From a virus, in the IMG/VR virus record IMGVR_UViG_3300010885_078619, positions 1-31,817 of that record: a DNA stretch of 31,817 nucleotides; one strand, written 5' to 3'. Below are positions 285-31,621 of this stretch, in pieces. The number at the start of each line of letters is the position of its first letter. The first letter of the stretch is position 1. The notes beneath the pieces are model-generated. The model was given only the letters and a program-made list of their open reading frames with translations. It ran no database searches and was not told the origin of the DNA. Made by a program: the position numbers and the translations under genes.

Positions 285-319
285 AACCCTATCCTATCAT
301 GGTTCCTCAGGGTTTTGCA
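285..319 (-). promoter_or_regulatory. Leaderless-type promoter element
   Basis: Read on the minus strand: TGCAAA, 17 bases, TAGGAT, six bases, ATG of the gene ending at 284. It overlaps the last codons of the upstream gene at 297-566. The same spacing recurs at many other gene starts in this window. Confidence 0.6.
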
Positions 320-566
320 CCGTTCCTAGAACAATATAGGTTCCATCGGTTACGTAAGAATAGTTCTCACACCTTCTCATGGGAACTTCGTGTTTAAAAA
401 CCGTTCCAGGCCGGGAAGAATGAATCAATAGGATCTTTGAAACACCATCACCAGGAATTCCAGGAAGTTCACCAACGATTGTATAAATTGTGTTTCTGGA
501 TTGGGATAGGATAACATCACCAACCTGTAATTCACTCTCCAGGGCAACGGAACCGATCTCCCTCAC
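297..566 (-). CDS. PGD-family-like small protein (LQVGDVILS)
   Basis: An 89-residue protein from a GTG start that lies two bases after the stop of the gene at 569-751. An N-terminal stretch of about 13 residues precedes LQVGDVILSQ, a distant form of the PGDLVR motif, followed by IYTIVGELPG and a beta-rich middle ending LGTVQNPEEP. The 3' end contains a promoter element for the following gene. No function recognised. Confidence 0.65.
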   Translation of the reverse strand: MREIGSVALESELQVGDVILSQSRNTIYTIVGELPGIPGDGVSKILLIHSSRPGTVFKHEVPMRRCENYSYVTDGTYIVLGTVQNPEEP

Positions 567-568
567 CG

Positions 569-751
569 TTACCCCACAAGGTGTTTATCGTGGCGGAATT
601 CTGTTAGGATCTCCCACAGGAGGGCCGGAAGTGAATCATGGATGTGAAGGTAACCTGGTATACCATCATACATGCAACACCAGGCCGGGCCAGGTGAAAT
701 AACTCCGGGCTTTTCTCTCCAAATCCTGAATGATTTCATTAGGTTAAACAT
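569..751 (-). CDS. Hypothetical 60-residue protein
   Basis: The ATG directly abuts the stop codon of the leader-bearing gene at 752-964 (TGAATG) and its stop sits two bases before the next GTG, so the gene fits a coupled three-gene operon. An internal Met at residue 5 (MKSF) is another possible start. The sequence is rich in Trp, Pro and His (PAWCCMYDGIPGYLHIHDS) and contains no recognisable domain. The call rests on operon fit and absence of a competing frame, so confidence is moderate. Confidence 0.45.
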   Translation of the reverse strand: MFNLMKSFRIWREKPGVISPGPAWCCMYDGIPGYLHIHDSLPALLWEILTEFRHDKHLVG

Positions 752-964
752 TCAACTACGAATTTCTAGTTCAGCTTCGAGTTCGGTGATTTGCCTTTTT
801 AATTCAGCAATTTGTAATCTAATCTGAGCGGTGGAAAGATTACTAAAATCTTTTGGTTTAGGTAAACCAATCATTCTACTTTTTTCTTTCTTATCTTCGG
901 TTAGTTGGGCTCGCTTAATTTCTTCTGTAATAATCTGCTTAAGTTGTGCTGCGGTGATTTTCAT
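752..964 (-). CDS. Leader-bearing coiled-coil small protein
   Basis: A 70-residue protein. Residues 1-15 (MKITAAQLKQIITEE) form an amphipathic leader of the (Q/E)LRxIIxEE type that also starts the unrelated proteins at 17530-18185, 24586-24777 and 24940-25317. Residues about 28-36 are basic and proline-rich (GLPKPKDF); residues about 40-70 (LSTAQIRLQIAELKRQITELEAELEIRS) have the heptad pattern of a short coiled coil. The I-T-E within the leader fits the T4 prohead-protease consensus (I/L)xE. A good Shine-Dalgarno (taggaga) precedes the ATG. It heads a three-gene operon. Possible internal head or scaffold component (inference). Confidence 0.7.
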   Translation of the reverse strand: MKITAAQLKQIITEEIKRAQLTEDKKEKSRMIGLPKPKDFSNLSTAQIRLQIAELKRQITELEAELEIRS

Positions 965-1080
965 GGTGATAAATATATCTCCTAATTAAAAATGTCAGTG
1001 AAGTTGAAAATATCATATACTGATGATTAGCAACGCGAGGTGTATCATAGGGATATTTATTTATTGTGAGTTAGAGAAAA
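965..1080. other. Intergenic region left of IS200/IS605 element
   Basis: AT-rich stretch between the start of the leader-bearing gene and the left-end hairpin of the insertion sequence. It holds the ribosome binding site of the 752-964 gene near 974-979 and, presumably, the outer tip of the insertion sequence. No convincing gene is present. Confidence 0.5.
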
Positions 1081-1101
1081 GATACGGCCTTGTGCCGTAT
1101 C
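1081..1101 (+). repeat. IS left-end hairpin
   Basis: Eight-base-pair perfect stem gatacggc/gccgtatc around the five-base loop cttgt. It is the kind of subterminal structure recognised by Y1 HUH transposases. The same hairpin, with one bulged base, occurs at 13598-13619. Confidence 0.75.
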
Positions 1102-1109
1102 ATGAATCG

Positions 1110-1514
1110 TCATATTCTATCATGCTGAGTTTCAATGTATTTTTTCACACTTTCTTCGTTGGTTTCTCCAACAGATCCGTAGAAGGTTCCTCTACTCCAC
1201 AAACCTGATCCCCAAAATTTTCTACCTTTTAGTTTTGGAAACTTAGTGAAGATATACACAGCTGATATTGATTTCAACGTTTTTGCTATTTCTATCGGAG
1301 CTGTTTGATGATCCGCCTGAACAAAAATGTGAACATGATCTGGCATCACTTCAATGGTATGTAATAGCCAACCATATTCTCCACAAGTTTCTGCAATGAT
1401 ATGTTTTGTCTCGACAGCAATATCATCTTTTAACACTGCATGTCGATATTTTGGGCACCAAACGATGTGATAACCGAGTGAATGAACGCAATTATTTTCT
1501 GATATTTTTTGCAT
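1110..1514 (-). CDS. tnpA: IS200-type Y1 HUH transposase
   Basis: A 134-residue protein, the normal size of IS200/IS605 TnpA. It catalyses single-strand excision and insertion of the element at the end hairpins. Visible motifs: GYHIVWCPKYRHAVL near residues 14-28; the metal-binding HUH pair H60-V-H62 in MPDHVHIFV; and the nucleophile Tyr126 in SVKKYIETQ near the C-terminus. The chosen start (MQKISENN) leaves tnpA and tnpB divergent with little or no overlap; an upstream in-frame start at 1550 would add 12 residues but overlap tnpB. All catalytic residues are intact, so the enzyme is probably active and may also act on the tnpB-only relative at 12.5-13.6 kb. Confidence 0.92.
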   Translation of the reverse strand: MQKISENNCVHSLGYHIVWCPKYRHAVLKDDIAVETKHIIAETCGEYGWLLHTIEVMPDHVHIFVQADHQTAPIEIAKTLKSISAVYIFTKFPKLKGRKFWGSGLWSRGTFYGSVGETNEESVKKYIETQHDRI

Positions 1515-1533
1515 ATTGGTTATACTTATAAAC

Positions 1534-2697
1534 GTGAACAGGACGATCAAGGTAAAATTACAACTTTCTGATGCAGATGTTCTCTCGCTTAGAGAAACTC
1601 AGAAGATTGTTTCGTCCTGCTTCAACGATCACGTAGCTTGGTCATTTAAGAAGAAGTCTTGGTCGAAGTTAACTGCCCATAAAGATCTCTATTTCTCACA
1701 GAGAGAAAAATTCCCTCAACTTCCGTCTGCAATGTTGCAATCCACAAGAGATACAGCTCTTGAATCTGTAAAAGCGTTAAAATTCAAGTTTCAGCCTAAG
1801 AAATCTGAAAACAGCGGGATTAGGTACGATAAGAGATTGTTCTCACTAAGAGGAGAACAACTTACTTTGAGCTCTATAAACGGTAGAATTAAGACAATAG
1901 TTCAATTCCCTGAATGGTGTAAGGAAGTTGTAAAAAAGGGAAAGGTTCAAGGAATTCAACTTTGCTGGGACAAGAAAAAGAAACAGTTTAATGCGAGTAT
2001 AGTCTTTAGCTTGTTCGATATTAAGCCTAAATCAGACGGAACAGTCATAGGCTTAGATAGAGGTTTGATCAACTTAGTGACGAGTTCAGAAGGTGAAATT
2101 TTTGGTGGGAAATCAGTCAGAAAGAATCAGAGGAAGTTCCTCTACTTGAGGAAGAAGTTGTCGACAAAAGGTACTCATTCCGCTAAAAGGCTTCTTAGGA
2201 AGATTAGTGGAAAAGAGCAGCGGTTCAGTCGAGAAATTAATCACATCATTGCGAAAGAATTGTCTGAAAGAAGTGAAGTCAAAACGTATGTCATAGAGGA
2301 TTTAAGCGGAATTAGAAACAAATCAAGAGGAAGAAAGATGAACAAGATTCTCTCCTCTTGGGCTTTTAAACAGTTTGAATCTTTCTTGACTTATAAGTGC
2401 ACAGCAAAAGGAATATCTGTCGAAAAAGTTGATGCAAGATATACGTCACAAAGATGTTCTTGTTGCGGAACAATTAGAAAAGAAAATCGTTTGAGAGGAA
2501 GATACTCCTGTAATCGATGTAGTTTCACAAAACACGCAGACATTAATGCAGCAATTAATATCAGAGATCGTTGGATCTCTAAATCATCTCGCAGCTTGAA
2601 CTGTGAGCAGGATGCAGTCAATCATCCACACGGAAACAGTGTTGTTCTTGACGTTGGATCAAGCGCTGAGTTCCAAGGTCACGGCCTCGTGCCGTGA
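1534..2697 (+). CDS. tnpB: TnpB, RNA-guided RuvC-like nuclease of IS605
   Basis: About 387 residues from a GTG start (NRTIKVKLQLSD); a TTG at 1516 is an alternative. TnpB is the RNA-guided nuclease ancestral to Cas12 and promotes retention of the element. RuvC-I is in IGLDRGLINLV, RuvC-II in YVIEDLSGIRNK, and RuvC-III in HADINAAINI. A four-cysteine zinc ribbon (CSCCG, then CNRC) sits just before RuvC-III. All three acidic residues are present. The last codons (GHGLVP) are encoded by the right-end hairpin, as in the second TnpB of this window. The guide RNA expected from the 3' end of tnpB and the right end would take its guide from bases just past about 2699. Confidence 0.93.
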   Translation: MNRTIKVKLQLSDADVLSLRETQKIVSSCFNDHVAWSFKKKSWSKLTAHKDLYFSQREKFPQLPSAMLQSTRDTALESVKALKFKFQPKKSENSGIRYDKRLFSLRGEQLTLSSINGRIKTIVQFPEWCKEVVKKGKVQGIQLCWDKKKKQFNASIVFSLFDIKPKSDGTVIGLDRGLINLVTSSEGEIFGGKSVRKNQRKFLYLRKKLSTKGTHSAKRLLRKISGKEQRFSREINHIIAKELSERSEVKTYVIEDLSGIRNKSRGRKMNKILSSWAFKQFESFLTYKCTAKGISVEKVDARYTSQRCSCCGTIRKENRLRGRYSCNRCSFTKHADINAAINIRDRWISKSSRSLNCEQDAVNHPHGNSVVLDVGSSAEFQGHGLVP

Positions 2698-2974
2698 CTA
2701 TTTGACCCTCCGCATTACATTTCGGGAAACTCCGTTCATCCGTTAATCCCTCGTGTTGGAAGAAGATCTCTTCCGATTCCTTGAATAAGGAACGTAGATC
2801 CTCGTAGCCCAGCTCAATGGAATTGGTTCCACTTCCCCAAGGATCGGTGATTCCAATACTAAACCTCTTGTAGGTTGGATTCCAATGAATGCTTAGATGA
2901 TTTCCTTCCATATCATGAAAACCAGCCGAGGTGTTCTTCTTCTTTTTTGCCGTGGTGTTCAACCCCTTCTTCAT
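2618..2974 (-). pseudogene. Small phage gene truncated by the IS right end
   Basis: Native coding sequence runs from 2974 to about 2699: a lysine-rich start (MKKGLNTTAKKKK), then HLSIHWNPTYKRFSIGI and an acidic region (GYEDLRSLFKESEEIFF). After about residue 92 the frame continues into the insertion sequence and ends with 26 residues antisense to tnpB, so the natural C-terminus is probably lost. A leaderless-type promoter sits directly upstream. The 116 bases on the far side of the element do not show a clear in-frame remainder, so how much was lost is unknown. No function recognised. Confidence 0.55.
2678..2698 (+). repeat. IS right-end hairpin, also the tnpB 3' end
   Basis: Perfect eight-base-pair stem gtcacggc/gccgtgac with loop ctcgt. 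It overlaps the tnpB stop codon and encodes the terminal GLVP. In this family the right end also forms the scaffold of the TnpB guide RNA. Confidence 0.7.
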
Positions 2975-3009
2975 GATTCTATTCTATCATCCTCCTGCGA
3001 AACTTTGCA
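2975..3009 (-). promoter_or_regulatory. Leaderless-type promoter element
   Basis: Minus strand: TGCAAA, 17 bases, TAGAAT, six bases (AGAATC), ATG at 2974. The best match of the series to a consensus -10. It overlaps the stop region of the preceding gene. Confidence 0.65.
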
Positions 3010-3277
3010 CCGGATCAACATCACTCATGAAAAGGTAGAATTCCTTAACACCTTCGTAATCCCACACACCAACTCGAATTCCAAACTGTTGAACCGCACT
3101 GATCCAGGAACCGTGAGGAGATCTTGAGTTCTGTGGGGAATCATAGGTAAATCCCCCGGCCGAGATCCATTTTCCACCCTTTTCCACCCCACGAAATCCT
3201 CGGTTCTTACCGGATTTTATTGGTGGTTGAGATGAAATATTTCCGTGTGGATCACAGCCAAGTTCCTCAAGGTTCAT
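2987..3277 (-). CDS. Hypothetical protein
   Basis: A 96-residue protein starting MNLEELGCDPHG, one base after the TAA of the upstream gene. A longer in-frame start at 3373 would overlap that gene by 95 bases and is rejected. The sequence is Gly/Lys-rich in the middle (KSGKNRGFRGVEKGGKW) and ends with a strand-rich segment (FGIRVGVWDYEGVKEFYLFMSDVD). No known domain recognised. It is the second gene of an operon led by 3279-3680. Confidence 0.65.
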   Translation of the reverse strand: MNLEELGCDPHGNISSQPPIKSGKNRGFRGVEKGGKWISAGGFTYDSPQNSRSPHGSWISAVQQFGIRVGVWDYEGVKEFYLFMSDVDPVQSFAGG

Positions 3278-3278
3278 G

Positions 3279-3680
3279 TTACGCGTTTTCCCATCCTCCA
3301 ACCGGCCGATATCCGGAAGGATACTGGCAAACATAACCACGCCAACCATCGGCCTCGCATCCTTCCAAGGCATCCGAAAGATTGTTCCAGGTGGTTGGAT
3401 TCCACGAGGCTATTTTTCCTGTTGGAGAACCATCAACAGTGTAGGCAATTCCGTACAACATTCGCCCATCCAATTCCTTGGTGTGCCTAACCCATTCCTG
3501 AAGTGCCCCAATTAGATTTTCTGCCTCCTTCCAACCTTCGGAGGAGGGAGGAAGAGAAAAAGAAGTACTTTCGTGATAATCAACAGTAACAATTCTCAGT
3601 GTTCCATCTACAATCATCTCCAGGAACAAATCACCGTGTTTTTCGGAATCAATTTCGCTTGTGTATAGATCTGCACTCAT
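3279..3680 (-). CDS. Hypothetical protein
   Basis: A 133-residue protein with a strong promoter element directly before the ATG. The N-terminal half is strand-rich (LFLEMIVDGTLRIVTVDY). The middle has an amphipathic helix (SEGWKEAENLIGALQEWVRHTK) and the C-terminal part a second region around WNPTTWNNLSDALEGCEADGW. No family is recognised. It is the first gene of a two-gene operon with the gene at 2987-3277. Confidence 0.7.
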   Translation of the reverse strand: MSADLYTSEIDSEKHGDLFLEMIVDGTLRIVTVDYHESTSFSLPPSSEGWKEAENLIGALQEWVRHTKELDGRMLYGIAYTVDGSPTGKIASWNPTTWNNLSDALEGCEADGWRGYVCQYPSGYRPVGGWENA

Positions 3681-3715
3681 GTTTCTATTCTACCTCACTC
3701 AGGTATGGGTTTGCA
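3681..3715 (-). promoter_or_regulatory. Leaderless-type promoter element
   Basis: Minus strand: TGCAAA, 17 bases, TAGAAT, AGAAAC, ATG at 3680. The -35-like box begins two bases after the TGA of the upstream gene, so a terminating operon and a new start are directly juxtaposed. Confidence 0.65.
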
Positions 3716-3716
3716 C

Positions 3717-5298: not shown

Positions 5299-5471
5299 GA
5301 GATCACCTGGTAATAGTTAAGGAAGTATGCTTGTGCACCATGATTCACCTTGCCATTTGTGAATAAAACAACAAACCCGTATTCAGTTTCCTCAAGAATC
5401 ACACCCATCTCCTCATCATGAAAAACCGAGGCATTTGTATAGATGGTATGAATCATATCACCGGTTTTCAT
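5295..5471 (-). CDS. PGD-family small protein (58 aa)
   Basis: A 58-residue gene from ATG at 5471: MKTGDMIHTIYTNASVFHDE, then EMGVILEETEYGFVVLF and a short tail (AQAYFLNYYQVIS). It is the first gene of an operon that runs through 5131, 4916, 4697 and 4506, and is preceded by a leaderless-type promoter. Confidence 0.7.
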   Translation of the reverse strand: MKTGDMIHTIYTNASVFHDEEMGVILEETEYGFVVLFTNGKVNHGAQAYFLNYYQVIS

Positions 5472-5505
5472 GATTCACTCTACCATCCCTTTACGGAACT
5501 TTGCA
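5472..5505 (-). promoter_or_regulatory. Leaderless-type promoter element
   Basis: Minus strand: TGCAAA, 17 bases, TAGAGT, five bases (GAATC), ATG at 5471. One base shorter between -10 and ATG than the other members. Confidence 0.6.
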
Positions 5506-5507
5506 CC

Positions 5508-6113: not shown

Positions 6114-6373
6114 ACCAATTCCAGATCACATCTTTTTATCCAACCACAACCACCTAATGTAGGTAAAACCTTTACCCAAAATGTTTGGATGTGTTTTCCA
6201 TCACCAGGAATTTCCTTTTGTTCCAATACAATTCCAACATCAATGTAACTGAATTTTCCTACGTGGCACTTCCTATAGATCGATTCAAAACTCGGCGGAT
6301 CATCCCACAGCACCTTAAATGGTTCCTCACCCTCCAATTCAGGAATGATTCGTACCATATCACCGGGTTTCAT
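6110..6373 (-). CDS. PGD-family small protein
   Basis: An 87-residue protein with the full architecture: MKPGDMVRIIPELEGEEP, FSYIDVGIVLEQKEIPGDG, then FWVKVLPTLGGCGWIKRCDLELV. It is preceded by a leaderless-type promoter and leads an operon through 5880, 5699 and 5508. Confidence 0.78.
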   Translation of the reverse strand: MKPGDMVRIIPELEGEEPFKVLWDDPPSFESIYRKCHVGKFSYIDVGIVLEQKEIPGDGKHIQTFWVKVLPTLGGCGWIKRCDLELV

Positions 6374-6408
6374 GATTCCAATCTACCACATCCATTCCAC
6401 GGTTTGCA
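6374..6408 (-). promoter_or_regulatory. Leaderless-type promoter element
   Basis: Minus strand: TGCAAA, 17 bases, TAGATT, GGAATC, ATG at 6373. The upstream box lies inside the 3' end of the gene at 6383-6652. Confidence 0.65.
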
Positions 6409-6652
6409 CATCTTCTTCTCGAATCCAACCAATTCCGGTGGGACAAGAAATCTTCAACCACCTCTCGTAGATCTCATCATCTTCATCCACGTAAACATCA
6501 CATTCCAATACCAATCCAACATCCAAGTAGTGAAAATGGGTTGCAGGTGGAATAAGAATTCCAGCCTTTGTGTACAACACCAAGGTGGCAACATCAGGAA
6601 AGTTTGGATCCAAACTTTCCGCACGAATTCGTACGAGATATCCAGGGATCAC
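6383..6652 (-). CDS. PGD-family small protein (MIPGYLVRI)
   Basis: An 89-residue protein from GTG, overlapping the upstream stop by four bases. Blocks: MIPGYLVRIRAESL, FHYLDVGLVLECDVYVDED, and RWLKISCPTGIGWIREEDVQTVEW. The middle and C-terminal halves resemble the genes at 6110-6373 and 8159-8428, suggesting recent duplication. Confidence 0.75.
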   Translation of the reverse strand: MIPGYLVRIRAESLDPNFPDVATLVLYTKAGILIPPATHFHYLDVGLVLECDVYVDEDDEIYERWLKISCPTGIGWIREEDVQTVEWMW

Positions 6653-6864: not shown

Positions 6865-7097
6865 GTGAGAACCTCTATATCATCCTCAATCTCTTCATCC
6901 TTCAACCAGGTTCTTCCAACCATTCTAACAGGGGAGGTGAGAAAAACATGGATCTCGTTGTACTTGGATCCTGGCTTCTTTGGGATGAAATCAATCACCA
7001 TTCCAAACCAATCACCATAAACGTTATCAAAAACTTGATGACGATGGTAAAAATCAGGCGGAACAGGTTTGTTTCTAACCATATCACCAGGTTTCAT
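6861..7097 (-). CDS. PGD-family small protein
   Basis: A 78-residue protein: MKPGDMVRNKPVPPDFYHRH, DWFGMVIDFIPKKPGSKYN, then IHVFLTSPVRMVGRTWLKDEEIEDDIEVL. Preceded by a leaderless-type promoter and first gene of the run through 6649 and 6383. Confidence 0.75.
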   Translation of the reverse strand: MKPGDMVRNKPVPPDFYHRHQVFDNVYGDWFGMVIDFIPKKPGSKYNEIHVFLTSPVRMVGRTWLKDEEIEDDIEVLT

Positions 7098-7132
7098 GGT
7101 TCTACCTTACCACACTCACATGTGGGTTTGCA
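7098..7132 (-). promoter_or_regulatory. Leaderless-type promoter with dyad spacer
   Basis: Minus strand: TGCAAA, 17-base spacer containing CCACAT-GTGA-GTGTGG, TAAGGT, AGAACC, ATG at 7097. The spacer is a near-perfect dyad (one mismatch) and could be an operator. It overlaps the end of the gene at 7116-7352. Confidence 0.65.
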
Positions 7133-7611: not shown

Positions 7612-7859
7612 TTGCTTCCTCCTTTCAAGATTTCTTCTACGAGTAACTCAGGCTCACCCCATCTTTCGATCGAACGCCAAGGTAAAGAACCGAGCTCATT
7701 TCGCCGTAGCTGGCTCAAATCGTTGAGCTCAGTGATTCCGTAGATTTCAGCGTTCTCAATCTCTTCGTGGGCATATTTGAATCCAATTTTGCCAGCCTCG
7801 GACTCATCCTTCGCCTCTACGAGAATTTCTGTTTGAAATGTCACGCGATAAAGTTTCAT
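7608..7859 (-). CDS. Cassette protein, copy 1
   Basis: An 83-residue protein: MKLYRVTFQTEILVEAKDES, EAGKIGFKYAHEEIENAEIY, then GSLPWRSIERWGEPELLVEEIL. The start resembles small phage proteins in which a beta strand (YRVTFQTEILVEA) is followed by a helix with DESEA, as in ferredoxin-like folds. A close paralogue lies at 10088-10354. A leaderless-type promoter precedes it and it overlaps the next ATG by four bases. Confidence 0.75.
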   Translation of the reverse strand: MKLYRVTFQTEILVEAKDESEAGKIGFKYAHEEIENAEIYGITELNDLSQLRRNELGSLPWRSIERWGEPELLVEEILKGGSK

Positions 7860-8116
7860 GGTAGCACTTTATCATAGTTTGGACTGGGTTTGCACTCAAT
7901 GGCTACATTTGCGATCCATAATGGTTGTCCATGCACCAGGATTCTCGTGAATTCTTCACGAATCTCTAGGATGACCCCTACGTCCTCGGAATAAACAATG
8001 ACAGCCTTGTGATACCCATATTCCCCTGGATAGCTAGCGTATGCTTTTCTTCCAAGATCAAGGCCATGCATCACGGCCCACCGTGGGATCGTAGAGACCA
8101 TATCACCAGGTTTCAT
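7856..8116 (-). CDS. PGD-family small protein
   Basis: An 86-residue protein: MKPGDMVSTIPRWAVMHGLD, VIVYSEDVGVILEIREEFTR, then ILVHGQPLWIANVAIECKPSPNY. PLWIANVAIE stands in for the GWIxxxDLE block. Its own promoter lies directly upstream, and the promoter of the cassette lies within its 3' end. Confidence 0.73.
   Translation of the reverse strand: MKPGDMVSTIPRWAVMHGLDLGRKAYASYPGEYGYHKAVIVYSEDVGVILEIREEFTRILVHGQPLWIANVAIECKPSPNYDKVLP
7860..7894 (-). promoter_or_regulatory. Leaderless-type promoter element
   Basis: Minus strand: TGCAAA, 17 bases, TAAAGT, GCTACC, ATG at 7859. Drives cassette copy 1. Confidence 0.6.
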
Positions 8117-8151
8117 GGTTTTATCTTACCACACTCACGTGTGGGTTTGCA
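8117..8151 (-). promoter_or_regulatory. Leaderless-type promoter with perfect dyad spacer
   Basis: Minus strand: TGCAAA, 17-base spacer with the perfect dyad CCACAC-GTGA-GTGTGG, TAAGAT, AAAACC, ATG at 8116. The dyad sits between the two boxes, where a repressor or activator would act. Confidence 0.65.
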
Positions 8152-8158
8152 CCGGGTT

Positions 8159-10087: not shown

Positions 10088-10354
10088 TCACGCAGAGTTT
10101 CTTTCTCTCAGGATTTCTTCAACAGTTAGTTCAGGTTCCTTTGCCAAATCACGTTGGATGTTTCTCCACGGCAAAGAACCACGTTCACCTCGAAGGAGTT
10201 GATCCTCTGCTGTGATCTCCTTGATGGAATACACGTTCGTATTTCCATTACCAATCTCCTCTTCTAGATTATTGTACCCAATTCGTTCTGCCTCACGTTC
10301 ATCCGAGGCATCCACCAAGATCTCTGTTTGAAATGTCAGCCTATAAAGGGTCAT
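10088..10354 (-). CDS. Cassette protein, copy 2
   Basis: An 88-residue paralogue of 7608-7859: MTLYRLTFQTEILVDASDER, EAERIGYNNLEEEIGNGN, then GSLPWRNIQRDLAKEPELTVEEIL. Strongly conserved blocks are LYR(V/L)TFQTEILV, RGSLPWR and PEL(L/T)VEEIL. Own leaderless-type promoter upstream, as for copy 1. Confidence 0.75.
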   Translation of the reverse strand: MTLYRLTFQTEILVDASDEREAERIGYNNLEEEIGNGNTNVYSIKEITAEDQLLRGERGSLPWRNIQRDLAKEPELTVEEILRERNSA

Positions 10355-10389
10355 GTCACTACCTTAAACCACAAGGTATCAGATTTGCA
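10355..10389 (-). promoter_or_regulatory. Leaderless-type promoter element
   Basis: Minus strand: TGCAAA, 17 bases, TAAGGT, AGTGAC, ATG at 10354. The upstream box lies in the 3' end of the gene at 10379-10648. Confidence 0.6.
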
Positions 10390-10648
10390 CATCTACATTC
10401 ATTACTGTTCCAGGAGAAATCAACTTAATCTCATCCTCTTCCTCCACGAAAATTTCTTTCACAACACCTTCACACAAAAGTTTTAAGGTTGAATATGAAG
10501 TTTCCCAACGCCCAAATGGATCTTGATTTTGACCTTCATCGTGATTCAATACCACACCCACAATCACACCACATTCCATTCCTTCCCAAATCTTGGTAAT
10601 CTTAATCAAATTACCCCTCATCAAACCTAAACACTGTGATCTAGACAT
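10379..10648 (-). CDS. Divergent PGD-family small protein (LMRGNLIKI)
   Basis: An 89-residue protein from ATG at 10648 with MSRSQCLGLMRGNLIKITKI, then MECGVIVGVVLNHDEGQN and an acidic region (EGVVKEIFVEEEDEIKLIS). RGNLIKI corresponds to PGDLVRI, GVIVGVVLN to the second block, and the final EEEDEIKLI to the DLExI block. Confidence 0.65.
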   Translation of the reverse strand: MSRSQCLGLMRGNLIKITKIWEGMECGVIVGVVLNHDEGQNQDPFGRWETSYSTLKLLCEGVVKEIFVEEEDEIKLISPGTVMNVDVQI

Positions 10649-12099: not shown

Positions 12100-12296
12100 T
12101 CCACCAACTCCAGGTAATTTCGATGAAGTCTAACAATCATCTTGCCCGTGTCAGGGTGACCCACCCTCAACACCTGCAACATCTCCAGCTGGTATTTGGT
12201 GTACTTCTTCCCTTTGGTGGGTACGTACTCCGGACCAAGCACCACCCCAAGAATGTCGGGTGAAGTCTTGAATCGAACCAGGTTACCAGGCTTCAT
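12096..12296 (-). CDS. PGD-family small protein (MKPGNLVRF)
   Basis: A 66-residue protein: MKPGNLVRFKTSPDILGVVL, GPEYVPTKGKKYTKYQLEML, then VGHPDTGKMIVRLHRNYLELVE. Asn replaces the usual Asp. Leaderless-type promoter upstream; first gene of a pair. Confidence 0.73.
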   Translation of the reverse strand: MKPGNLVRFKTSPDILGVVLGPEYVPTKGKKYTKYQLEMLQVLRVGHPDTGKMIVRLHRNYLELVE

Positions 12297-12331
12297 GATT
12301 CAAACTTACCACACTGAAATGGGGGTTTGCA
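12297..12331 (-). promoter_or_regulatory. Leaderless-type promoter element
   Basis: Minus strand: TGCAAA, 17 bases ending AGTGTGG, TAAGTT, TGAATC, ATG at 12296. Keeps the right half of the dyad seen at 8117-8151. Confidence 0.6.
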
Positions 12332-12356
12332 CCCGTGCCTAGATCTCCACATCATC

Positions 12357-17236: not shown

Positions 17237-17463
17237 TTTACCTCCGTAAAATAACTAGAGTTACTCCAACCAACGTATCCATTCGCCAACCACCGAACCC
17301 ACAATTCACGATTCTTGGCAGTCTCAAGAATGATTCCGGTTGTATTGCGGGGTGCATCTGGAATGAGAGGATTTACCCAATCGTTCTTGAAATTTTCAGC
17401 CCCAGGAATCGACGTAAACATCGGGAGATTACAGAGACACTTGACGAGGCTTCCTGACTGCAT
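17233..17463 (-). CDS. PGD-family small protein (MQSGSLVKC)
   Basis: A 76-residue protein: MQSGSLVKCLCNLPMFTSIP, NTTGIILETAKNRELWVRWL, then ANGYVGWSNSSYFTEVK. Leaderless-type promoter upstream with an 18-base spacer. First gene of the operon through 17006, 16804, 16475 and 16209. Confidence 0.7.
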   Translation of the reverse strand: MQSGSLVKCLCNLPMFTSIPGAENFKNDWVNPLIPDAPRNTTGIILETAKNRELWVRWLANGYVGWSNSSYFTEVK

Positions 17464-17499
17464 ATAACTACCATATCACGTCTCAATCACAAATTTGCA
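17464..17499 (-). promoter_or_regulatory. Leaderless-type promoter element (18-base spacer)
   Basis: Minus strand: TGCAAA, 18 bases, TATGGT, AGTTAT, ATG at 17463. A second TGCAAA lies three bases further upstream (17503-17508). Confidence 0.55.
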
Positions 17500-26451: not shown

Positions 26452-26463
26452 GAATGTGTGGGT

Positions 26464-26825: not shown

Positions 26826-26965
26826 ATATGACTTACAGTGTTTCATTTGACTTTCTTAACTTAATCTACCGAGTCTTAGTTTTACACCACCAGATTCACA
26901 TTTTTTCATCCTCAAATCTTATTAGCTAAAAAAGTTAGACTAGCTGTCTAGGTCGTAATATATAT
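26826..26965. other. AT-rich gap before homing endonuclease
   Basis: No tRNA or gene is visible. It presumably holds the plus-strand signals of the endonuclease gene. Confidence 0.4.
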
Positions 26966-27748
26966 ATGATTATGGAACATAAAGATTTTCTGTGTGAGCA
27001 TTGTGAGCGTGTCTGCAAGAATGCCATGTCGCTATCTCAACATCGTTTAAGATGTGAGAAGAATCCTGGGAATATTAAAGATAATTTCTATCTACCTTCT
27101 AGGAAGGGAAAATACAAGAAAGACAATCCTTCAGAGTTGACGTTGAAGAGGCGAGCTGCTCGAGCTAGAAAAGTCTTATTTGAGGAGAATGGCTCACTAT
27201 CTTGCTTGTACTGTGAAAAACTCACCGAGGATTATTCATGTTTAACTGTACATGAATCAATGTGTCCAAAGAATCCCAACAGAGGAGACAGAAGCCTTAG
27301 TGAAGAGACTAAAAAGAAATTATCACTTATCACGAAGGGTAGAAAGATGTCAGATGAGTTTAAGACAAAGATTAGTGAGGCAATGAAGCGAGCTATTCTT
27401 GAGCATCCTGAATCTTATACGTCATCCAACAGAGGAAGGGTAAAACAGATTATTGTCGATGGAGTTAAGCTTCATGGTTCATGGGAGGCAACTTTTTATT
27501 CCTGGGCAAAAGAAAATAATCTGAATCCTGAAAGGTGTTTGACTGGATTTGATTACTTCTGGAATGGGAAGAACAGAAAGTATTTTCCGGATTTTTATCT
27601 TCCGAATCTTGATCTTTATGTCGAAGTGAAAGGATATGAGACCGAACAAGATAGAGAAAAATGGAGACAGTTTCCTGAGAAGATTATTGTTCTAAAAAAA
27701 GAAGAGATAAGAAGCATTCTGAAAGGATCTTATTCAATCCGATTTTAA
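26966..27748 (+). CDS. Homing endonuclease, NUMOD3 plus Vsr-like nuclease
   Basis: A 260-residue protein on the strand opposite the tRNAs. Two C2HC-like zinc modules: CEHCERVCKNAMSLSQHRLRC (about 9-29) and CLYCEKLTEDYSCLTVHESMC (about 77-98). Then NUMOD3-type DNA-binding repeats (SEETKKKLSLITKGRK, SDEFKTKISEAMKR). The C-terminal catalytic part has GSWEATFYSWAKENN and YFPDFYLPNLDLYVEVKGYE, the E/D/ExK pattern of Vsr-like nucleases such as I-Bth0305I. Probably a free-standing homing nuclease maintaining itself between phage tRNA genes. Confidence 0.85.
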   Translation: MIMEHKDFLCEHCERVCKNAMSLSQHRLRCEKNPGNIKDNFYLPSRKGKYKKDNPSELTLKRRAARARKVLFEENGSLSCLYCEKLTEDYSCLTVHESMCPKNPNRGDRSLSEETKKKLSLITKGRKMSDEFKTKISEAMKRAILEHPESYTSSNRGRVKQIIVDGVKLHGSWEATFYSWAKENNLNPERCLTGFDYFWNGKNRKYFPDFYLPNLDLYVEVKGYETEQDREKWRQFPEKIIVLKKEEIRSILKGSYSIRF

Positions 27749-27754
27749 AGAGTT

Positions 27755-27832
27755 TGGTGGAACGGGTGGGACTCGAACCCACACATGTCCGGTTATGAGC
27801 CGGGTAATCTGAACCAATTGATTTACCGTTCC
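27755..27832 (-). tRNA. tRNA with CAT anticodon (Met or Ile2), copy 1
   Basis: Acceptor ggaacgg/ccgttcc perfect, anticodon loop ctCATaa in stem cccgg/ccgga, T-arm gtggg-ttcgagt-cccac, encoded CCA. Lacks the C1-A72 mismatch of initiators. Could be elongator Met or lysidine-modified Ile (AUA). Confidence 0.9.
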
Positions 27833-27843
27833 ATTTAGAGATT

Positions 27844-27921
27844 TGGTGGGACAGGAGGGACTCGAACCCCCACATGTTCGCTTATGAGGCGACTAATCTG
27901 AACCTATTGATTTACTGTCCC
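27844..27921 (-). tRNA. tRNA with CAT anticodon (Met or Ile2), copy 2
   Basis: Acceptor gggacag/ctgtccc perfect, anticodon loop ctCATaa, T-arm ggggg-ttcgagt-ccctc, encoded CCA. Very similar D-arm to copy 1, so a tandem duplicate; one of the two may have been recruited for AUA decoding. Confidence 0.9.
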
Positions 27922-27932
27922 ATTTTAGTATT

Positions 27933-28009
27933 TGGCACCCCCAGATGGATTCGAACCACCGACCGGTCGGGTAGAAACCGACAGCTCTAATCCGCTGAGC
28001 TATGGGGGC
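27933..28009 (-). tRNA. tRNA-Arg (TCT)
   Basis: Acceptor gccccca/tgggggt (G-T at first pair), anticodon loop ttTCTac in stem gtcgg/ccgac, T-arm ggtgg-ttcgaat-ccatc, encoded CCA. Reads AGA. Confidence 0.92.
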
Positions 28010-28034
28010 GTGTTGTGTTTTCTTTTGTGATTTT

Positions 28035-28119
28035 TGGTGGAAGGTGATGGATTCGAACCATCGAAGGCGGTGCCGGCAGATTTACAGTCTGCTCCCTTTA
28101 GCCACTCGGGAAACCTTCC
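28035..28119 (-). tRNA. tRNA-Tyr (GTA)
   Basis: Class II shape with anticodon loop ctGTAaa in stem gcaga/tctgc, acceptor ggaaggt/accttcc, T-arm gatgg-ttcgaat-ccatc, encoded CCA. Reads UAU and UAC. Confidence 0.93.
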
Positions 28120-28150
28120 TTGGAGACGTTACGTTGATTATCAAAGAACG

Positions 28151-28236
28151 TGGTACCAGGGACGGGACTCGAACCCGTACGACTGTGAGGTCCGCGGATT
28201 TTAAGTCCGCTGCGTATACCATTCCGCCACCCTGGC
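28151..28236 (-). tRNA. tRNA-Leu (TAA)
   Basis: Class II shape with anticodon loop ctTAAaa in stem gcgga/tccgc, acceptor gccaggg/ccctggt, T-arm acggg-ttcgagt-cccgt, encoded CCA. Reads UUA. Confidence 0.93.
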
Positions 28237-28282
28237 AAGGTGAGGGACCTATTGTGACCGGGTCCCTGGGCGGTGTATTTAT

Positions 28283-28603
28283 TTACTTAGTTTTGGTCTT
28301 GGTCGCCGTTGGTGTCTTCTTGGTGGGTGTTGTCTTCTCGAGGAGGACTGGAACGACCTGTGCGTAGTAGGATGATGGGACGTCAGGTCGACGATGGTTG
28401 ATGTTGGAGGCGCATGAGGCAGCCTTGGATCGTGAGTAGAAGATCTGGGCTTCGGCCTTGACAGACCAGATTCCACGGAGTCGACCGGAGTATGCACGGC
28501 GGTTGAGGAACTTGCCTGCGTTTGCCTCCCGCACGATGTAGGCGGTGTAGTACTTGTCCATGTCGATGTCTGAGGCGAACTGCTGCGTCTTGGTGTTATT
28601 CAT
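28283..28603 (-). CDS. Hypothetical protein with basic Thr/Lys tail
   Basis: A 106-residue protein: MNNTKTQQFASDIDMDKYYT, AYIVREANAGKFLNRRAYSG, IWSVKAEAQIFYSRSKAASC, and a tail KKTPTATKTKTK that should be disordered and DNA- or RNA-binding. Shine-Dalgarno aaggaaag. Lies within the tRNA cluster. Confidence 0.7.
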   Translation of the reverse strand: MNNTKTQQFASDIDMDKYYTAYIVREANAGKFLNRRAYSGRLRGIWSVKAEAQIFYSRSKAASCASNINHRRPDVPSSYYAQVVPVLLEKTTPTKKTPTATKTKTK

Positions 28604-28663
28604 GTTGTTTATATTATTCTTTCCTTGGCTGGATTTACAAACTATTTTTTGGGGTGGAATCTG

Positions 28664-28879
28664 TTAGGCTGCGAGGATTGTGGCGGTGTTGGAGGCGATG
28701 TGTTTGGCGTTGTCGTTGGTGGTGATGATGGCTTCTTGTGAGTTTGAGAAGAAGATGTTGTTGCGTGGGTCGATGATGGGGTCGATGTGGATGATGGGGA
28801 GGAAGGATCCTGAGGGAGTGAGGATGACTTGACCGATTTGGAGGGAGCTGACCTTGGTGGTTGTTGTGTTGTTGCTCAT
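28664..28879 (-). CDS. Hypothetical small beta-rich protein
   Basis: A 71-residue protein: MSNNTTTTKVSSLQIGQVIL, TPSGSFLPIIHIDPIIDPRN, then SQEAIITTNDNAKHIASNTA. LQIGQVILT recalls the PGDLVR opening, so a distant relation to the PGD family is possible. No function recognised. Confidence 0.62.
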   Translation of the reverse strand: MSNNTTTTKVSSLQIGQVILTPSGSFLPIIHIDPIIDPRNNIFFSNSQEAIITTNDNAKHIASNTATILAA

Positions 28880-28905
28880 GGTGGGTATAAGTATGTTGAT
28901 TTTGA

Positions 28906-28977
28906 GCCACCTGTCGGAATCGAACCGACGACCTACGGGTTAAAAGCCCGCTGCTCTACCGACTGAGATACAGTCCC
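28906..28977 (-). tRNA. Chimeric tRNA-Lys (TTT) with mismatched acceptor
   Basis: Good D-, anticodon (gcggg-ctTTTaa-cccgt) and T-arms (gtcgg-ttcgatt-ccgac), but the acceptor strands gggactg and aggtggc cannot pair. The 3' strand aggtggc is the perfect complement of gccacct, the 5' strand of the orphan tRNA half at 29614-29645. Probably a recombinant, non-functional tRNA. Confidence 0.7.
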
Positions 28978-29013
28978 ATGACGTCAATCTAAGCGAGGCG
29001 ACCCCAGTGGGAA

Positions 29014-29097
29014 TGGAGCCTGAGGTCAGATTCGAACTGACGTGGGTTACCCGCCGCGTTACAAATGCGGTCCAATCGACCTCTATGGGACTCAGGC
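29014..29097 (-). tRNA. tRNA-Thr (TGT), atypical variable arm
   Basis: Acceptor gcctgag/ctcaggc perfect, T-arm gtcag-ttcgaat-ctgac perfect, encoded CCA. Anticodon loop ttTGTaa, with the last stem pair mismatched (A-C). The variable region cgggtaacccac is far longer than normal for threonine tRNA. Its 5' end overlaps the stop of the HNH gene. Confidence 0.75.
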
Positions 29098-29568
29098 TTG
29101 ATTCTTGAATTCTCTGTTACCTTTTCTTATTCGTGTTGATGTTTTTTCTTTTGATGATCTTCCCCAATTTCTAAAGTTAGGTGTTAGTGCGTGACAGTTA
29201 GGACATAATACTCTAAGATTTTCTTTTGTATTATTAGTATGATTACCGTCGATATGATCGATTTCTAGAATTGTCTGTCCATTATCTCGTGTCTTATTAT
29301 AACCGCATTGAGAACAAGTATTATTCGCTTCTTGCAATAATCGTTCTCGTCGTTTACCGTAACCCAGCTTTTCAAAAGGAACCGAAGACCAATCAGTATA
29401 AGAATGTTGATTCTTTGCTTCTTTACCTCTTCTCGACTTCATTGCTTCGTAAAAAGCTTCTGTCTTGGGAGGAACAGCAATCCTATCAGGGTTTTCCTTA
29501 CAGTGCCTTTCATGATATTTCAATCCTCTTTTTCCACATTCTCTTGAACAATATTTACATGTATCCAT
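29092..29568 (-). CDS. HNH homing endonuclease with zinc finger
   Basis: A 158-residue protein. N-terminal zinc module CKYCSRECGKRGLKYHERHC (about 4-23), a basic linker, then the HNH core: CSQCGYNKTRD, ILEIDHIDGNHTNN and LRVLCPNCHALTPNFRN. Of the type found in phage tRNA clusters. It lies directly between an orphan tRNA 5' half and a tRNA-Thr whose start it overlaps, as expected if its insertion rearranged the cluster. Confidence 0.9.
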   Translation of the reverse strand: MDTCKYCSRECGKRGLKYHERHCKENPDRIAVPPKTEAFYEAMKSRRGKEAKNQHSYTDWSSVPFEKLGYGKRRERLLQEANNTCSQCGYNKTRDNGQTILEIDHIDGNHTNNTKENLRVLCPNCHALTPNFRNWGRSSKEKTSTRIRKGNREFKNQA

Positions 29569-29680: not shown

Positions 29681-30379
29681 TTATCCGTTCATCGTCTTGG
29701 AGGGCTTGACGGTGTCGTCGCTCCTGGTGATGAGCTCAACATCGGAGGTGAAGAGGTAGATGGGCTTGCGGCCTTCGATCTCCACGTAGCATCTGATGCG
29801 CTGTGAGCTGTCGACGATGCCGGTGAGTCCGATGAAGCGAGGATCTCCGCCGATGATGCGGACGAGGTCGCCTTGTTCGATCCTGACGTTGCGAGATCGC
29901 TCGGTGGCGGCGACACGGTTGTGATGTTGGAGATGGAGTGAAATTGATGCGATGGTGGCTGCATCGAAGTTGGAGATGATGTCGCTGAAGATGACAGCGG
30001 CTTGGTCGTTGAGCTTCGGCAGCTTGGCGCCGGCCTTCTCGACCTTCTTCATGTGTGCCGGCTTCTTGTTGTCGTTGAGAGCCTGTAGCGCTGCCAGCTT
30101 CTCTGCCTTGGCTGCAGCTCGGGCGCCGCGCCGGTCGGCACGCTCTGCCTCGAGCTTGGAGAGCTTGTTGGCCTTGTTTGCCTCGCGGGTGGCCTTGCGC
30201 TCGGCCTTTGCCTCGTCGTCGGTGGATGGCGACTTCTTGCCCTTGGCAAGTTCGGCCTTGACAGGCTTTGCCATGGCAACGGCCGGCTCGGAGGAAGCGG
30301 ATGCGTCCTTGGCAGCCTTGCGAGCCTTGGCAGCAGCGAGAGCCTTATCGATTGCGGAGAGCTTGGTCGTGTCAGTCAT
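29681..30379 (-). CDS. Basic Ala/Lys-rich protein with C-terminal KOW-like domain
   Basis: A 232-residue protein; ATG at 30379 is chosen because aaggaat is spaced eight bases from it (the Met two codons upstream is too close). Residues 1-115 are Ala/Lys/Glu-rich (ALAAAKARKAAKD, ERKATREANKANKLSKLE), a long charged helix or disordered region. Residues 115-150 contain VIFSDIISNFDAATIASISL. The end is KOW/SH3-like: VRIEQGDLVRIIGGDPRFIG, LTGIVDSSQRIRCYVEI. This domain has the same GDLVRI opening as the PGD array. Probably nucleic-acid binding (inference). Confidence 0.78.
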   Translation of the reverse strand: MTDTTKLSAIDKALAAAKARKAAKDASASSEPAVAMAKPVKAELAKGKKSPSTDDEAKAERKATREANKANKLSKLEAERADRRGARAAAKAEKLAALQALNDNKKPAHMKKVEKAGAKLPKLNDQAAVIFSDIISNFDAATIASISLHLQHHNRVAATERSRNVRIEQGDLVRIIGGDPRFIGLTGIVDSSQRIRCYVEIEGRKPIYLFTSDVELITRSDDTVKPSKTMNG

Positions 30380-30417
30380 TTCCATATTCCTTGTTGTTTG
30401 GTTGCCGTTACTTTCTT

Positions 30418-30445
30418 AATTTACTCTGTGGTTGCCGACTTTGCA
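30418..30445 (-). promoter_or_regulatory. Promoter-like element with 5' leader
   Basis: Minus strand: TGCAAA, 16 bases, TAAATT. Unlike the leaderless set, about 38 bases lie between the -10-like box and the ATG at 30379, with a Shine-Dalgarno. Confidence 0.45.
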
Positions 30446-30449
30446 CCGA

Positions 30450-30725
30450 CTATTTTTCGTTTGCGATTTTAATTTCTTCCTCCGTTGGAGGGCGCAGTTT
30501 GAAGCTGGAGGAAGGAATGACGAAGATTCCGTCGTAGATGAGATCCCCTGCCATGTTGAGGCAACCCCCGATGGTGTCGATGATGGGGAAGGTCTCGCCG
30601 ATGTAGTGATTCACGTAGACTCGTTTATTGACGTCGAAGTATATCCAGTCTTTGGTGAGTACCGCCATCAGGCGAGGTGTCGTGTTGTTGAGTTTTGGAT
30701 AGAGAGGCTTTTGCTTTTCTTCCAT
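30450..30725 (-). CDS. Hypothetical phage protein
   Basis: A 91-residue protein from ATG at 30725, one base after the stop of the upstream gene. MEEKQKPLYPKLNNTTPRLM, AVLTKDWIYFDVNKRVYVNH, TFPIIDTIGGCLNMAGDLIY, ending PPTEEEIKIANEK. Strand-rich with an acidic tail. No family recognised. The longer frame (to 30908) lies within the upstream gene and is rejected. Confidence 0.7.
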   Translation of the reverse strand: MEEKQKPLYPKLNNTTPRLMAVLTKDWIYFDVNKRVYVNHYIGETFPIIDTIGGCLNMAGDLIYDGIFVIPSSSFKLRPPTEEEIKIANEK

Positions 30726-30726
30726 G

Positions 30727-31077
30727 TCAGTAGTGTCCTGGTCGAGTGGTGTGACCCGACCAGGCGGTACCGTCCCAGATGTATGCATGTTCTGTGCCAA
30801 AATCTGGCCAAGCTTCTCGAAGCATCTCGTCGAGGTTGTCGTAGAAGACGAATTCCTTGTCTTCCCCACGATCCCTGGCGTATGCCACGGTCTCGGCGAG
30901 GGTGTCACCCAAGGAGCTCAGGTTGCCGAGCTCCACGAGTTCTCGAGCTAGCTTGGATGAGTTGTAATGATTCGTGAGGGTTGCGCCTACTCCCTCAGGG
31001 CGGCCGTCGTAGTGACAGTAAACGCCCTCGATGGATCCGTTAGCGTGAATGATTCCGATGCATGAGCGAGTTGACAT
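30727..31077 (-). CDS. Conserved phage protein (MSTRS...CHYDGxPEGVG family)
   Basis: A 116-residue protein: MSTRSCIGIIHANGSIEGVY, CHYDGRPEGVGATLTNHYNS, ELVELGNLSSLGDTLAE. I recognise this as a widespread family of phage and bacterial proteins with MSTRSxIG and YCHYDGYPEGVG; function unestablished. The C-terminal part (YIWDGTAWSGHTTRPGHY) is normal for the family. Same operon as the gene downstream. Confidence 0.88.
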   Translation of the reverse strand: MSTRSCIGIIHANGSIEGVYCHYDGRPEGVGATLTNHYNSSKLARELVELGNLSSLGDTLAETVAYARDRGEDKEFVFYDNLDEMLREAWPDFGTEHAYIWDGTAWSGHTTRPGHY

Positions 31078-31086
31078 GTGTACCTT

Positions 31087-31317
31087 TCAGTGATTGGATG
31101 CGAGGGCGAGAGGTTGGACTTCGGTGCGTAGTCTCTGGACGGTGGAGAGGAAGCCGATGTAGGCTTCGTCGATGGCATCGATCTCCCTGAAGTCAGGGTC
31201 GGTGGCGTTCTCCTCCAGGACTTGCAGCTCTTTGATGCGATTCTTCATCTGTCTCAGCTCGAATTCGAGTGAGGTGAGGTGAGACATCTTCAGGGTGTAG
31301 AACAGCTGAGGAATCAT
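31087..31317 (-). CDS. Hypothetical coiled-coil protein
   Basis: A 76-residue protein from ATG at 31317, with Shine-Dalgarno aaagga. MSHLTSLEFELRQMKNRIKE forms a heptad-like helix, followed by FREIDAIDEAYIGFLSTVQR. Probably an all-helical dimer. No function recognised. Confidence 0.68.
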   Translation of the reverse strand: MIPQLFYTLKMSHLTSLEFELRQMKNRIKELQVLEENATDPDFREIDAIDEAYIGFLSTVQRLRTEVQPLALASNH

Positions 31318-31328
31318 TCTTTTTCCTT

Positions 31329-31586
31329 TCAGTAGGAAGCCTGGCGACAGATGACTGGCTTTTGGCTTGACGGCATTAGGAGCCTCTTCTTGTAGCCGTT
31401 TCCGACATTGATGCAGTTGAAGTAGAAGACTGCTTGAGCCAGATCACCACGGAACGAGTAGCGGGTTCGGTAGCTACCCTTGCTGTACCGGCCGACCTGC
31501 ACGAGGAACTCGGTGGCGGAGGAGTATGCAATGTGCTTGCCGTTGAGTGTTGCGGTCTTGAGGTTCGTCTGCATTCCGTTCATCAT
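31329..31586 (-). CDS. Hypothetical basic beta-rich protein
   Basis: An 85-residue protein (MMNGMQTNLKTATLNGKHIA, LVQVGRYSKGSYRTRYSFRG, DLAQAVFYFNCINVGNGYKK). A leaderless-type promoter precedes it. Double Met at the start; the second ATG is equally possible. Reads as a small RNA- or protein-binding fold; no family recognised. Confidence 0.68.
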   Translation of the reverse strand: MMNGMQTNLKTATLNGKHIAYSSATEFLVQVGRYSKGSYRTRYSFRGDLAQAVFYFNCINVGNGYKKRLLMPSSQKPVICRQASY

Positions 31587-31621
31587 GATCTTAATCTACC
31601 TTGAGGATTGTTGACTTTGCA
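31587..31621 (-). promoter_or_regulatory. Leaderless-type promoter element
   Basis: Minus strand: TGCAAA, 17 bases, TAGATT, AAGATC, ATG at 31586. The -35-like box starts one base after the upstream stop codon. Confidence 0.62.

Follow-up and report, generated by a model that had tools for sequence, protein, structure and literature searches.

Gene-start boxes in the window

The DNA analysed here, called the window throughout, is a viral stretch of 31,817 bases (IMG/VR record IMGVR_UViG_3300010885_078619) whose minus strand carries a recurring, promoter-like box directly before gene starts. The window matches G001:62,136-93,952 with zero mismatches, G001 being IMGVR_UViG_3300009181_000033, a T4-like phage contig of 297,894 bases (~298 kb) with a 123-base terminal direct repeat; other records are likewise given G numbers. 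A sequence-only reading of the window had listed 11 starts at which TGCAAA and TANNNT are followed by ATG. All 11 are present on the minus strand, with a spacer of exactly 17 and the ATG 6 nucleotides (nt) on, or 5 nt at 5472. A scan of the whole window for TGCAAA-N17-TANNNT returned exactly those 11, with none on the forward strand and none in a backwards control, and 300 dinucleotide-preserving shuffles contained a mean of 0.34 sites (maximum 3), or 0.02 (maximum 1) with the ATG. Alternative spacers of 12 to 23 gave 0-3 matches each per strand.

282..320, minus strand: putative leaderless promoter and ATG, GTGCAAA-N17-TAGGAT-N6-ATG
2972..3010, minus strand: putative leaderless promoter and ATG of gene 2618-2974, GTGCAAA-N17-TAGAAT-N6-ATG
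3678..3716, minus strand: putative leaderless promoter and ATG of gene 3279-3680, GTGCAAA-N17-TAGAAT-N6-ATG
5469..5506, minus strand: putative leaderless promoter and ATG with a discriminator of 5, GTGCAAA-N17-TAGAGT-N5-ATG
6371..6409, minus strand: putative leaderless promoter and ATG, GTGCAAA-N17-TAGATT-N6-ATG
7095..7132, minus strand: putative leaderless promoter and ATG with A, not G, before TGCAAA, TGCAAA-N17-TAAGGT-N6-ATG
7857..7895, minus strand: putative leaderless promoter and ATG, GTGCAAA-N17-TAAAGT-N6-ATG
8114..8152, minus strand: putative leaderless promoter and ATG, GTGCAAA-N17-TAAGAT-N6-ATG
10352..10390, minus strand: putative leaderless promoter and ATG, lacking the G at -14, GTGCAAA-N17-TAAGGT-N6-ATG
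12294..12332, minus strand: putative leaderless promoter and ATG, GTGCAAA-N17-TAAGTT-N6-ATG
17461..17499, minus strand: doubtful member with T before TGCAAA, TGCAAA-N18-TATGGT-N6-ATG
30418..30446, minus strand: putative promoter of the same class with a leader, an internal control, GTGCAAAGT, spacer 16, TAAATT, with gene 29681-30385 downstream starting after AAGGA
31584..31622, minus strand: putative leaderless promoter and ATG, GTGCAAAGTC-TAGATT-N6-ATG
31791..31817, minus strand: -10 TAGAGT and ATG, with the -35 GTGAAAA past the window, ending at G001:93964

As a description of the -35 element TGCAAA proved too narrow, being one version of a wider GTGNA box. At 31794 the -10 and ATG geometry was as described and the -35 does lie past the window, but in G001:93926-93964 it reads GTGAAAA and not TGCAAA. 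The 18-base spacer reported at 17464 is correct, but the membership of this site is doubtful because T, and not the near-invariant G, precedes TGCAAA.

The box in related phages

Scanning a stricter form of the motif over 2.9 million viral contigs gave at least 118 stretches, with several on many single contigs. We counted the exact form TGCAAA-N17-TANNNT-N6-ATG in 41 records, 37 of them picked via the motif scan or the window, and found it to be abundant in a subset (G052 30, G051 29, G045 27, G048 24, G001 19, G058 19, G057 18 and G062 18), with a reversed control of 0 in all 41 records. Some records are near-duplicates, as G045 and G051 have sites in common. We found the 9-mer GTGCAAAGT 201 times in 11 contigs, where 8.2 occurrences would be expected; with it alone fixed, ATG fell at one constant offset in 150 of 179 unique sites. 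The -10 element, a G at -14 and an RRACC discriminator emerged unimposed when only GTGCAAAGT and the position of the ATG were set.

These 11 contigs and G142 formed a 12-contig set in which sites were defined by GTGCAAAGT plus TANNNT and deduplicated by identical 60-mers. Before deduplication there were 212 sites, with ATG at 6 nt in 191, at 4, 5 or 8 nt in 8 and at none of these in 13. The motif is thus not equally common inside genes or on the other strand: ATG lies 4-8 nt after the -10 at 199 of the 212. Deduplication left 186 distinct sites; the spacer is 17 bp in 184 of them, and in 165 the ATG follows the -10 by exactly 6 nt. The consensus has C-R-GTGNA(A) at -36 to -31, TANNNT at -12 to -7 after 17 bp, a G at -14 that extends the -10, and a discriminator of 6 nt, frequently RRACC, with the +1 position at the A of ATG. 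The G at -36 is conserved at 98%, and upstream, around -54 to -49, there is an A-rich tract resembling an UP element. The bases between -35 and -10 vary while both boxes are kept.

The general form, GTGNA-N17-GNTANNNT-N6-ATG, was counted in 38 records longer than 100 kb, where the reversed control gave 1 site in all. It occurred 43 times each in G142 and G132, 40 in G053, 37 in G039, 34 in G052, 26 each in G057 and G091, 24 in G043, 22 in G126, 20 in G001, 3 each in G103 and G004, 2 each in G128 and G047, and once each in G122, G139, G026 and Microcystis phage Mel-JY01; the remaining 20 records had 0. The -35 is GTGAAAC or GTGAATC in G126 and mixed in G091. The spacing from TANNNT to ATG peaked at N6 in G001, G052, G057, G142, G091 and G126, most clearly in the G+C-rich G091 (77 versus 19-36 elsewhere) and G126 (65 versus 13-47). 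With the G at -14 added, the same six phages had 32, 37, 29, 47, 38 and 37 sites at N6, respectively, against maxima of 22, 14, 18, 20, 12 and 21 at other spacings. N6 was not the peak in G005 (72 at 6, 83 at 7), nor with the -14 G (10 at N6 versus 31).

An ATG exactly 6 nt after the -10 means that +1 would be the A of AUG. Ten of the 13 exceptions have a start preceded by a Shine-Dalgarno (SD) sequence 29-49 nt past the -10; of the other three, one carries GTG at +1, another has two ATGs, at 3 and at exactly 6 nt, and the last shows neither arrangement. At random points in the same contigs an SD-preceded start lay within 49 nt in 9% and within 150 nt in 24%. Since these leadered sites hold the element away from the start codon and an SD is then present, the box behaves as a promoter in DNA; a translational signal is ruled out, as the leadered sites retain -35 and -10 and have an SD before the start. 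SD-like 4-mers lie at 4-9 nt in 32 of 193 exact sites, all through the -10 hexamer TAGGAT; we discount them because TAGGAT would be absent from a transcript starting at ATG.

The composition of the box fits recognition by RNA polymerase (RNAP) holoenzyme, with TG at -35/-34, an extended -10 and the A-rich tract. Its layout is that of a sigma70-type leaderless promoter (16-18 bp between -35 and -10, with the start codon supplying +1 some 7 nt beyond the -10), with a -35 of GTGNA(A) and not the TTGACA-like element of a canonical housekeeping promoter. TTGACA/TATAAT pairs occurred upstream of genes versus in control stretches at 8/327 versus 4/537 in G001, 7/302 versus 9/504 in G142, 6/217 versus 12/393 in G057, 0/372 versus 0/609 in G091 and 0/494 versus 1/678 in G126; any such class here is at most weak, with no clear enrichment upstream of genes. 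The promoter-like geometry and transcription from the ATG proposed for the window are thus supported by the 186 distinct sites, by the leadered variants and by the extended -10, discriminator and A-rich tract. From the computed motif, spacing, coincidence of +1 with ATG and leadered variants we infer transcription start and leaderless translation, and we consider it very likely that the box is a class of leaderless promoters. Our searches of the literature, largely without subscription papers and preprints, found no description of this promoter or of the split sigma proposed below.

The 176 distinct proteins downstream of the box in the 12 contigs, with a median length of 74 amino acids (aa), fall into 96 families, and a wider GTGNA set from ten contigs comprises 251 proteins in 158 families. 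Among ten longer GTGNA products, Pfam identified DNA polymerase III alpha, DNA ligase, polynucleotide kinase, RtcB, a chaperonin, Sir2 and a metallopeptidase, with 3 of the 10 lacking a match. When 70 further products were compared with PHROGs, 42 families were matched, each by one member at most; the 25 PHROG families listed include tail-fibre families, an exonuclease and a nucleotide kinase, so structural-type products are not entirely missing. A second box, ATABTTA, is a promoter class apart from GTGNA. In each of six phages tested it is commoner upstream of genes than in control stretches (46/327 versus 5/537 in G001; weakest in G005, 68/332 versus 30/519), and it precedes structural genes, such as tail sheath, with SD-bearing leaders. 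In G001 the region at 20-120 kb holds 25 of the 31 leaderless sites, and that at 120-280 kb holds 21 of the 30 ATABTTA-box genes. G001 also encodes a gp55-like late sigma (PHROG 234) at 13302-14117. These phages have both components of a T4-type late system, a gp55-like protein and a late box made of a -10 only, distinct from the GTGNA class.

Candidate readers of the promoter

Separate from the gp55-like protein, G001 encodes a truncated sigma70-family protein (41656-42468, minus strand). Pfam identified regions 2 (E = 2e-23) and 3 (9e-8) and no region 4, and the closest PDB proteins are RpoD/SigA (7e-60), the primary type. In 86 of 87 aligned homologues, some of them duplicates, the protein ends after LRLRFGL and a short tail, before region 4.2; the sole homologue with an intact 4.2 is that of G005, which is without the promoter. 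Beside its truncated sigma, G053 has a second, shorter one (133002-133580) with, by eye, a seemingly degenerate region 4.2.

A candidate for the missing part is a 92-aa protein encoded at about G001:286831-287109 on the plus strand, in which four invariant cysteines are followed by a 4.2-like helix-turn-helix, TLREIGKIYGLTRMRICQIEK. It matched Pfam Sigma70_r4 at 2e-8, above the curated cut-off and over profile positions 21-49 of 50, and SigA 4.2 in the PDB at 4e-7, and is thus 4.2-like by sequence profile; it had no match at E <= 0.01 in 50,697 phage records. The truncated sigma and the 92-aa protein match adjacent parts of PHROG 351, 477-690 and 695-723. An AlphaFold model of the 92-aa protein (predicted local distance difference test, pLDDT, 85) places helices at 61-68 and 72-91, and its top Foldseek match was a SigA r4 chimera, but at E = 1.0. 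In sigma70 a glutamate helps to read the third base of the -35. The 92-aa protein has methionine at this position, and in the phage -35 it is the third base that is free (C, A or T), a correspondence that is suggestive only.

A second small protein, of 94 aa (G001:41119-41403, minus strand, outside the window), has a very conserved core, NYREIADMMTEIGFKMNHSSARNYVLRVMRKF. Its gene is present in the flanking DNA retrieved for each of the 80 sigma loci, downstream of the sigma gene, with one small open reading frame (ORF) between them in G001. By eye the protein resembles a DNA-binding helix-turn-helix. It had no Pfam or PHROG match of weight and no profile similarity to the 92-aa protein; its best PDB match was a spore germination protein (E = 0.026), and a NYREIAD stretch matched SigR at E = 0.28. 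Profiles therefore do not support it as a sigma4. A phage-encoded RNAP beta subunit was not found in 8 records, and we therefore assume that the core enzyme is that of the host.

We called the sigma present (E below 1e-100) in 12 of the 38 records longer than 100 kb; 10 of these 12 encode the 92-aa protein and 10 have at least 3 GTGNA sites. G001 is the contig of the window itself, and G057, G053, G043 and G039 were reached via the motif scan. Among the 7 records picked by sigma or 92-aa sequence alone, 5 have at least 3 sites (G142, G132, G091, G126 and G103). G004, with a more distant truncated sigma and no 92-aa protein, has 3. A further group of 18 records, G005 among them, has the 92-aa protein in none and at most 2 sites; it comprises 14 AAA-protein relatives without the sigma (1 site in one, 0 in 13, at least 3 in none), Mel-JY01 with 1, the uncultured phage LR756508 with 0, and two chance finds from the motif scan with 2 and 0. 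The AAA-protein relatives are mostly negative as promoter carriers. Absences carry little weight, because records may be fragments. A narrower test by sigma sequence (80 sigma loci) found GTGCAAA-N17-TANNNT-N6-ATG in 24 of 38 contigs versus 1 of 11 others. The gp55-like sigma is an unlikely reader, since G005 has one without the promoter or the 92-aa protein.

The earlier reading held that TGCAAA is not a sigma-70 -35, and the element seen here is indeed not TTGACA-like. The phage-encoded factor that it proposed is made plausible by the truncated sigma, the 4.2-like protein, the association of the promoter with the sigma and the rarity of the exact box in bacterial genomes. On balance we think it probable that these leaderless promoters are read by the host RNAP core with a phage split sigma, the promoter being strongly supported and the reader proposed from sequence. 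A dedicated class of phage promoters would place +1 at the A of ATG, and the host core polymerase would transcribe dozens of mostly small genes into leaderless mRNAs. One part of the sigma, comprising regions 2 and 3 and the beginning of region 4, would read the -10 and extended -10; the -35 would be read by the missing 4.2-like helix-turn-helix, most likely that of the 92-aa four-cysteine protein and less likely by the 94-aa protein encoded downstream of the sigma. From co-occurrence and from the adjacent profile segments we infer that the two chains assemble and act at the GTGNA promoter, and we give such a reader slightly better than an even chance. Tentatively, and at somewhat less than an even chance, we further suggest that a jumbo-phage lineage cut a primary-type sigma inside domain 4, into a sigma2-sigma3 protein and a four-cysteine protein with 4.2, and thereby redirected host RNAP to a private GTGNA/extended -10 promoter with AUG starts.

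Several observations weigh against this proposal. G122 and G114 encode both proteins yet have 1 and 0 sites; the six records that encode the 92-aa protein but no sigma have 0-2 sites each; G052 has 34 sites on a 211-kb contig without either gene; and G043 and G039 have many sites without the 92-aa protein. Only 6 of 49 contigs picked by the 92-aa protein have the GTGCAAA form, perhaps because the 92-aa gene lies in the late region. That gene is far from the sigma gene, and the core helix of the 92-aa protein is invariant while the -35 varies (GTGCAAA, GTGAAAC, GTGTAA). The predicted model of the truncated sigma has middling confidence (pLDDT 69), and for the 92-aa model neither Foldseek (E <= 0.001) nor VIA (Z >= 2) returned a match. 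The peak at N6 is modest in the lower-G+C phages (82 at 6 and 71 at 7 in G001). Nor does a nearby GTGNA site account for the first expression of the sigma itself: the nearest GTGNA site lies 1.3 to 3.6 kb upstream in 7 of 9 records, and G001 and G058 have none within 4 kb.

The best-surviving alternative, which we consider fairly unlikely, is that these are ordinary early promoters read by the housekeeping sigma of the host, with GTGNA as a phage-optimised -35 and the split sigma serving other promoters. T4 early promoters form dense arrays with an A-rich upstream tract, and the arrays here, before tiny unrelated genes and with such a tract, are early-region-like. The related G005 uses TTTG-N18..20-TANNTTTG promoters, which we take to be of the Bacteroidota type, in 53 of 332 upstream regions versus 1 of 519 control stretches. 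Leaderless TANNNT promoters, moreover, are described as normal in some bacteria in the available portion of one study (PMC12340547). However, the identical core recurs across phages of 40-59% G+C, presumably with different hosts, the G at -36 is almost invariant, and the class accompanies the truncated sigma. The exact box, moreover, occurs in only 9 stretches of 257 Gb of bacterial genomes, about what chance would give for its length (the search covered this exact form and not the looser GTGNA one); of these 9 stretches, 5 are on contigs of metagenome-assembled genomes (MAGs) that match several proteins of these phages, including all contigs with more than one site. These contigs, from freshwater MAGs bearing the labels Candidatus Aquidulcis, Gammaproteobacteria and Proteobacteria, contain the promoter and are probably misbinned phage DNA, given those protein matches. 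The enriched words of G005 join into TACCTTTGTACTCTAAT.

Reading of the -35 by an activator such as the 94-aa protein, a MotA-like appropriation in place of a split sigma, is improbable: the constant presence of this protein at the sigma loci, its high conservation, its helix-turn-helix-like appearance and the weak SigR match speak for it, but the lack of a weighty Pfam or PHROG match, the spore germination protein as best PDB match and the missing similarity to the 92-aa protein speak against it. It is highly implausible that gene duplication spread the box as a DNA repeat or start box with no function as a promoter, for although several window genes are paralogous (MKPGD... starts), the 176 proteins form 96 families, -35 and -10 are kept while the bases between them vary, and ten leadered sites hold the box apart from the start codon.

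Known systems and genomic setting

T4 early and MotA-dependent middle promoters are dense, have an extended -10 and an upstream A-rich tract, and give transcripts with leaders. The class described here resembles them in density, extended -10 and A-rich tract and differs in leaders, boxes and spacing. We know of no link between the Bacillus subtilis SigO-RsoA system and leaderless transcripts. That system resembles the proposed split sigma in having sigma4 and sigma2 on separate proteins, according to an excerpt of one paper (PMC8103513); it is bacterial, whereas the proteins here are phage-encoded and primary-sigma-like, keep region 3 and are cut inside domain 4. T4 gp55 with gp33 is itself called a split sigma in the available part of a review (PMC2988020). 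Shared with the present case are the T4-like phage background and a sigma2-type protein with a separate small stand-in for sigma4. These phages, too, carry a gp55-like protein and late-type ATABTTA boxes. Unlike in the gp55/gp33 pair, however, it is a second, RpoD/SigA-like sigma with regions 2-3 that would be split here; a 4.2 helix-turn-helix can be recognised in the small protein, and a -35 is part of the promoter.

For leaderless initiation the closest likeness is to Deinococcus-Thermus, where, in the text available from PMC12340547, a TANNNT lying a few bases upstream of the ORF yields leaderless mRNA. There the -10 adjoins the ORF and a -35 merely enhances, whereas in these phages a highly conserved -35 is fixed at 17 bp. 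Phage transcripts are often leaderless, according to part of a paper on phage AR9 (PMC5312081), and leaderless phage genes as such are therefore not new. The AR9 leaders given there span 26-491 nt, whereas in the present phages a single promoter box would put +1 on the AUG of many genes. Phages have leaderless genes, and in some bacteria such genes form a known class; what we describe is an entire promoter class, in a lineage of uncultured giant lake phages, that is apparently built for AUG starts, alongside a candidate sigma factor divided inside its -35-reading domain. Leaderless GTGNA genes would coexist with SD-led genes in the same genomes, and the question of what a virus gains from leaderless mRNA could be tested directly in this system. 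If the proposal is right, the phage controls promoter recognition and leaderless translation jointly, separate from its SD-bearing late genes. The box is also a strong gene-start signal for annotating these genomes.

The terminase and tail sheath of G001 are at most about 42% identical to those of T4-like and other phages among the matches listed, and no matching record reaches 60%. By terminase the nearest cultured or deposited phages, at 39-42% identity, are Mel-JY01, Flavobacterium phage immuto and LR756508, the first and last with the one and no GTGNA-form sites given above. A report on 'moraphages' (PMC12619734), in the part available, predicts Bacteroidota hosts for the majority of them. 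Host-like genes at window 22427-24491, namely MlaC (E = 4e-24), an EamA-type ORF and S-adenosylmethionine decarboxylase, may point to a donor among Gram-negative bacteria.

IS200/IS605-type pieces lie among the leaderless genes at window 1110-2697 and 12462-13553, as one transposase-like ORF and two TnpB (Cas12f1-like TNB) genes. Ten tRNA genes (ARAGORN) are found at 26377-29568, interspersed with HNH/NUMOD-type endonuclease genes. Two large proteins, encoded at window 19104-22265 and G001:113565-116633, have a common N-terminus, MPIKFKGDMTKVVAKNKGDM, and the former has Laminin-G-like domains. These features suggest tail fibres with exchangeable tips.

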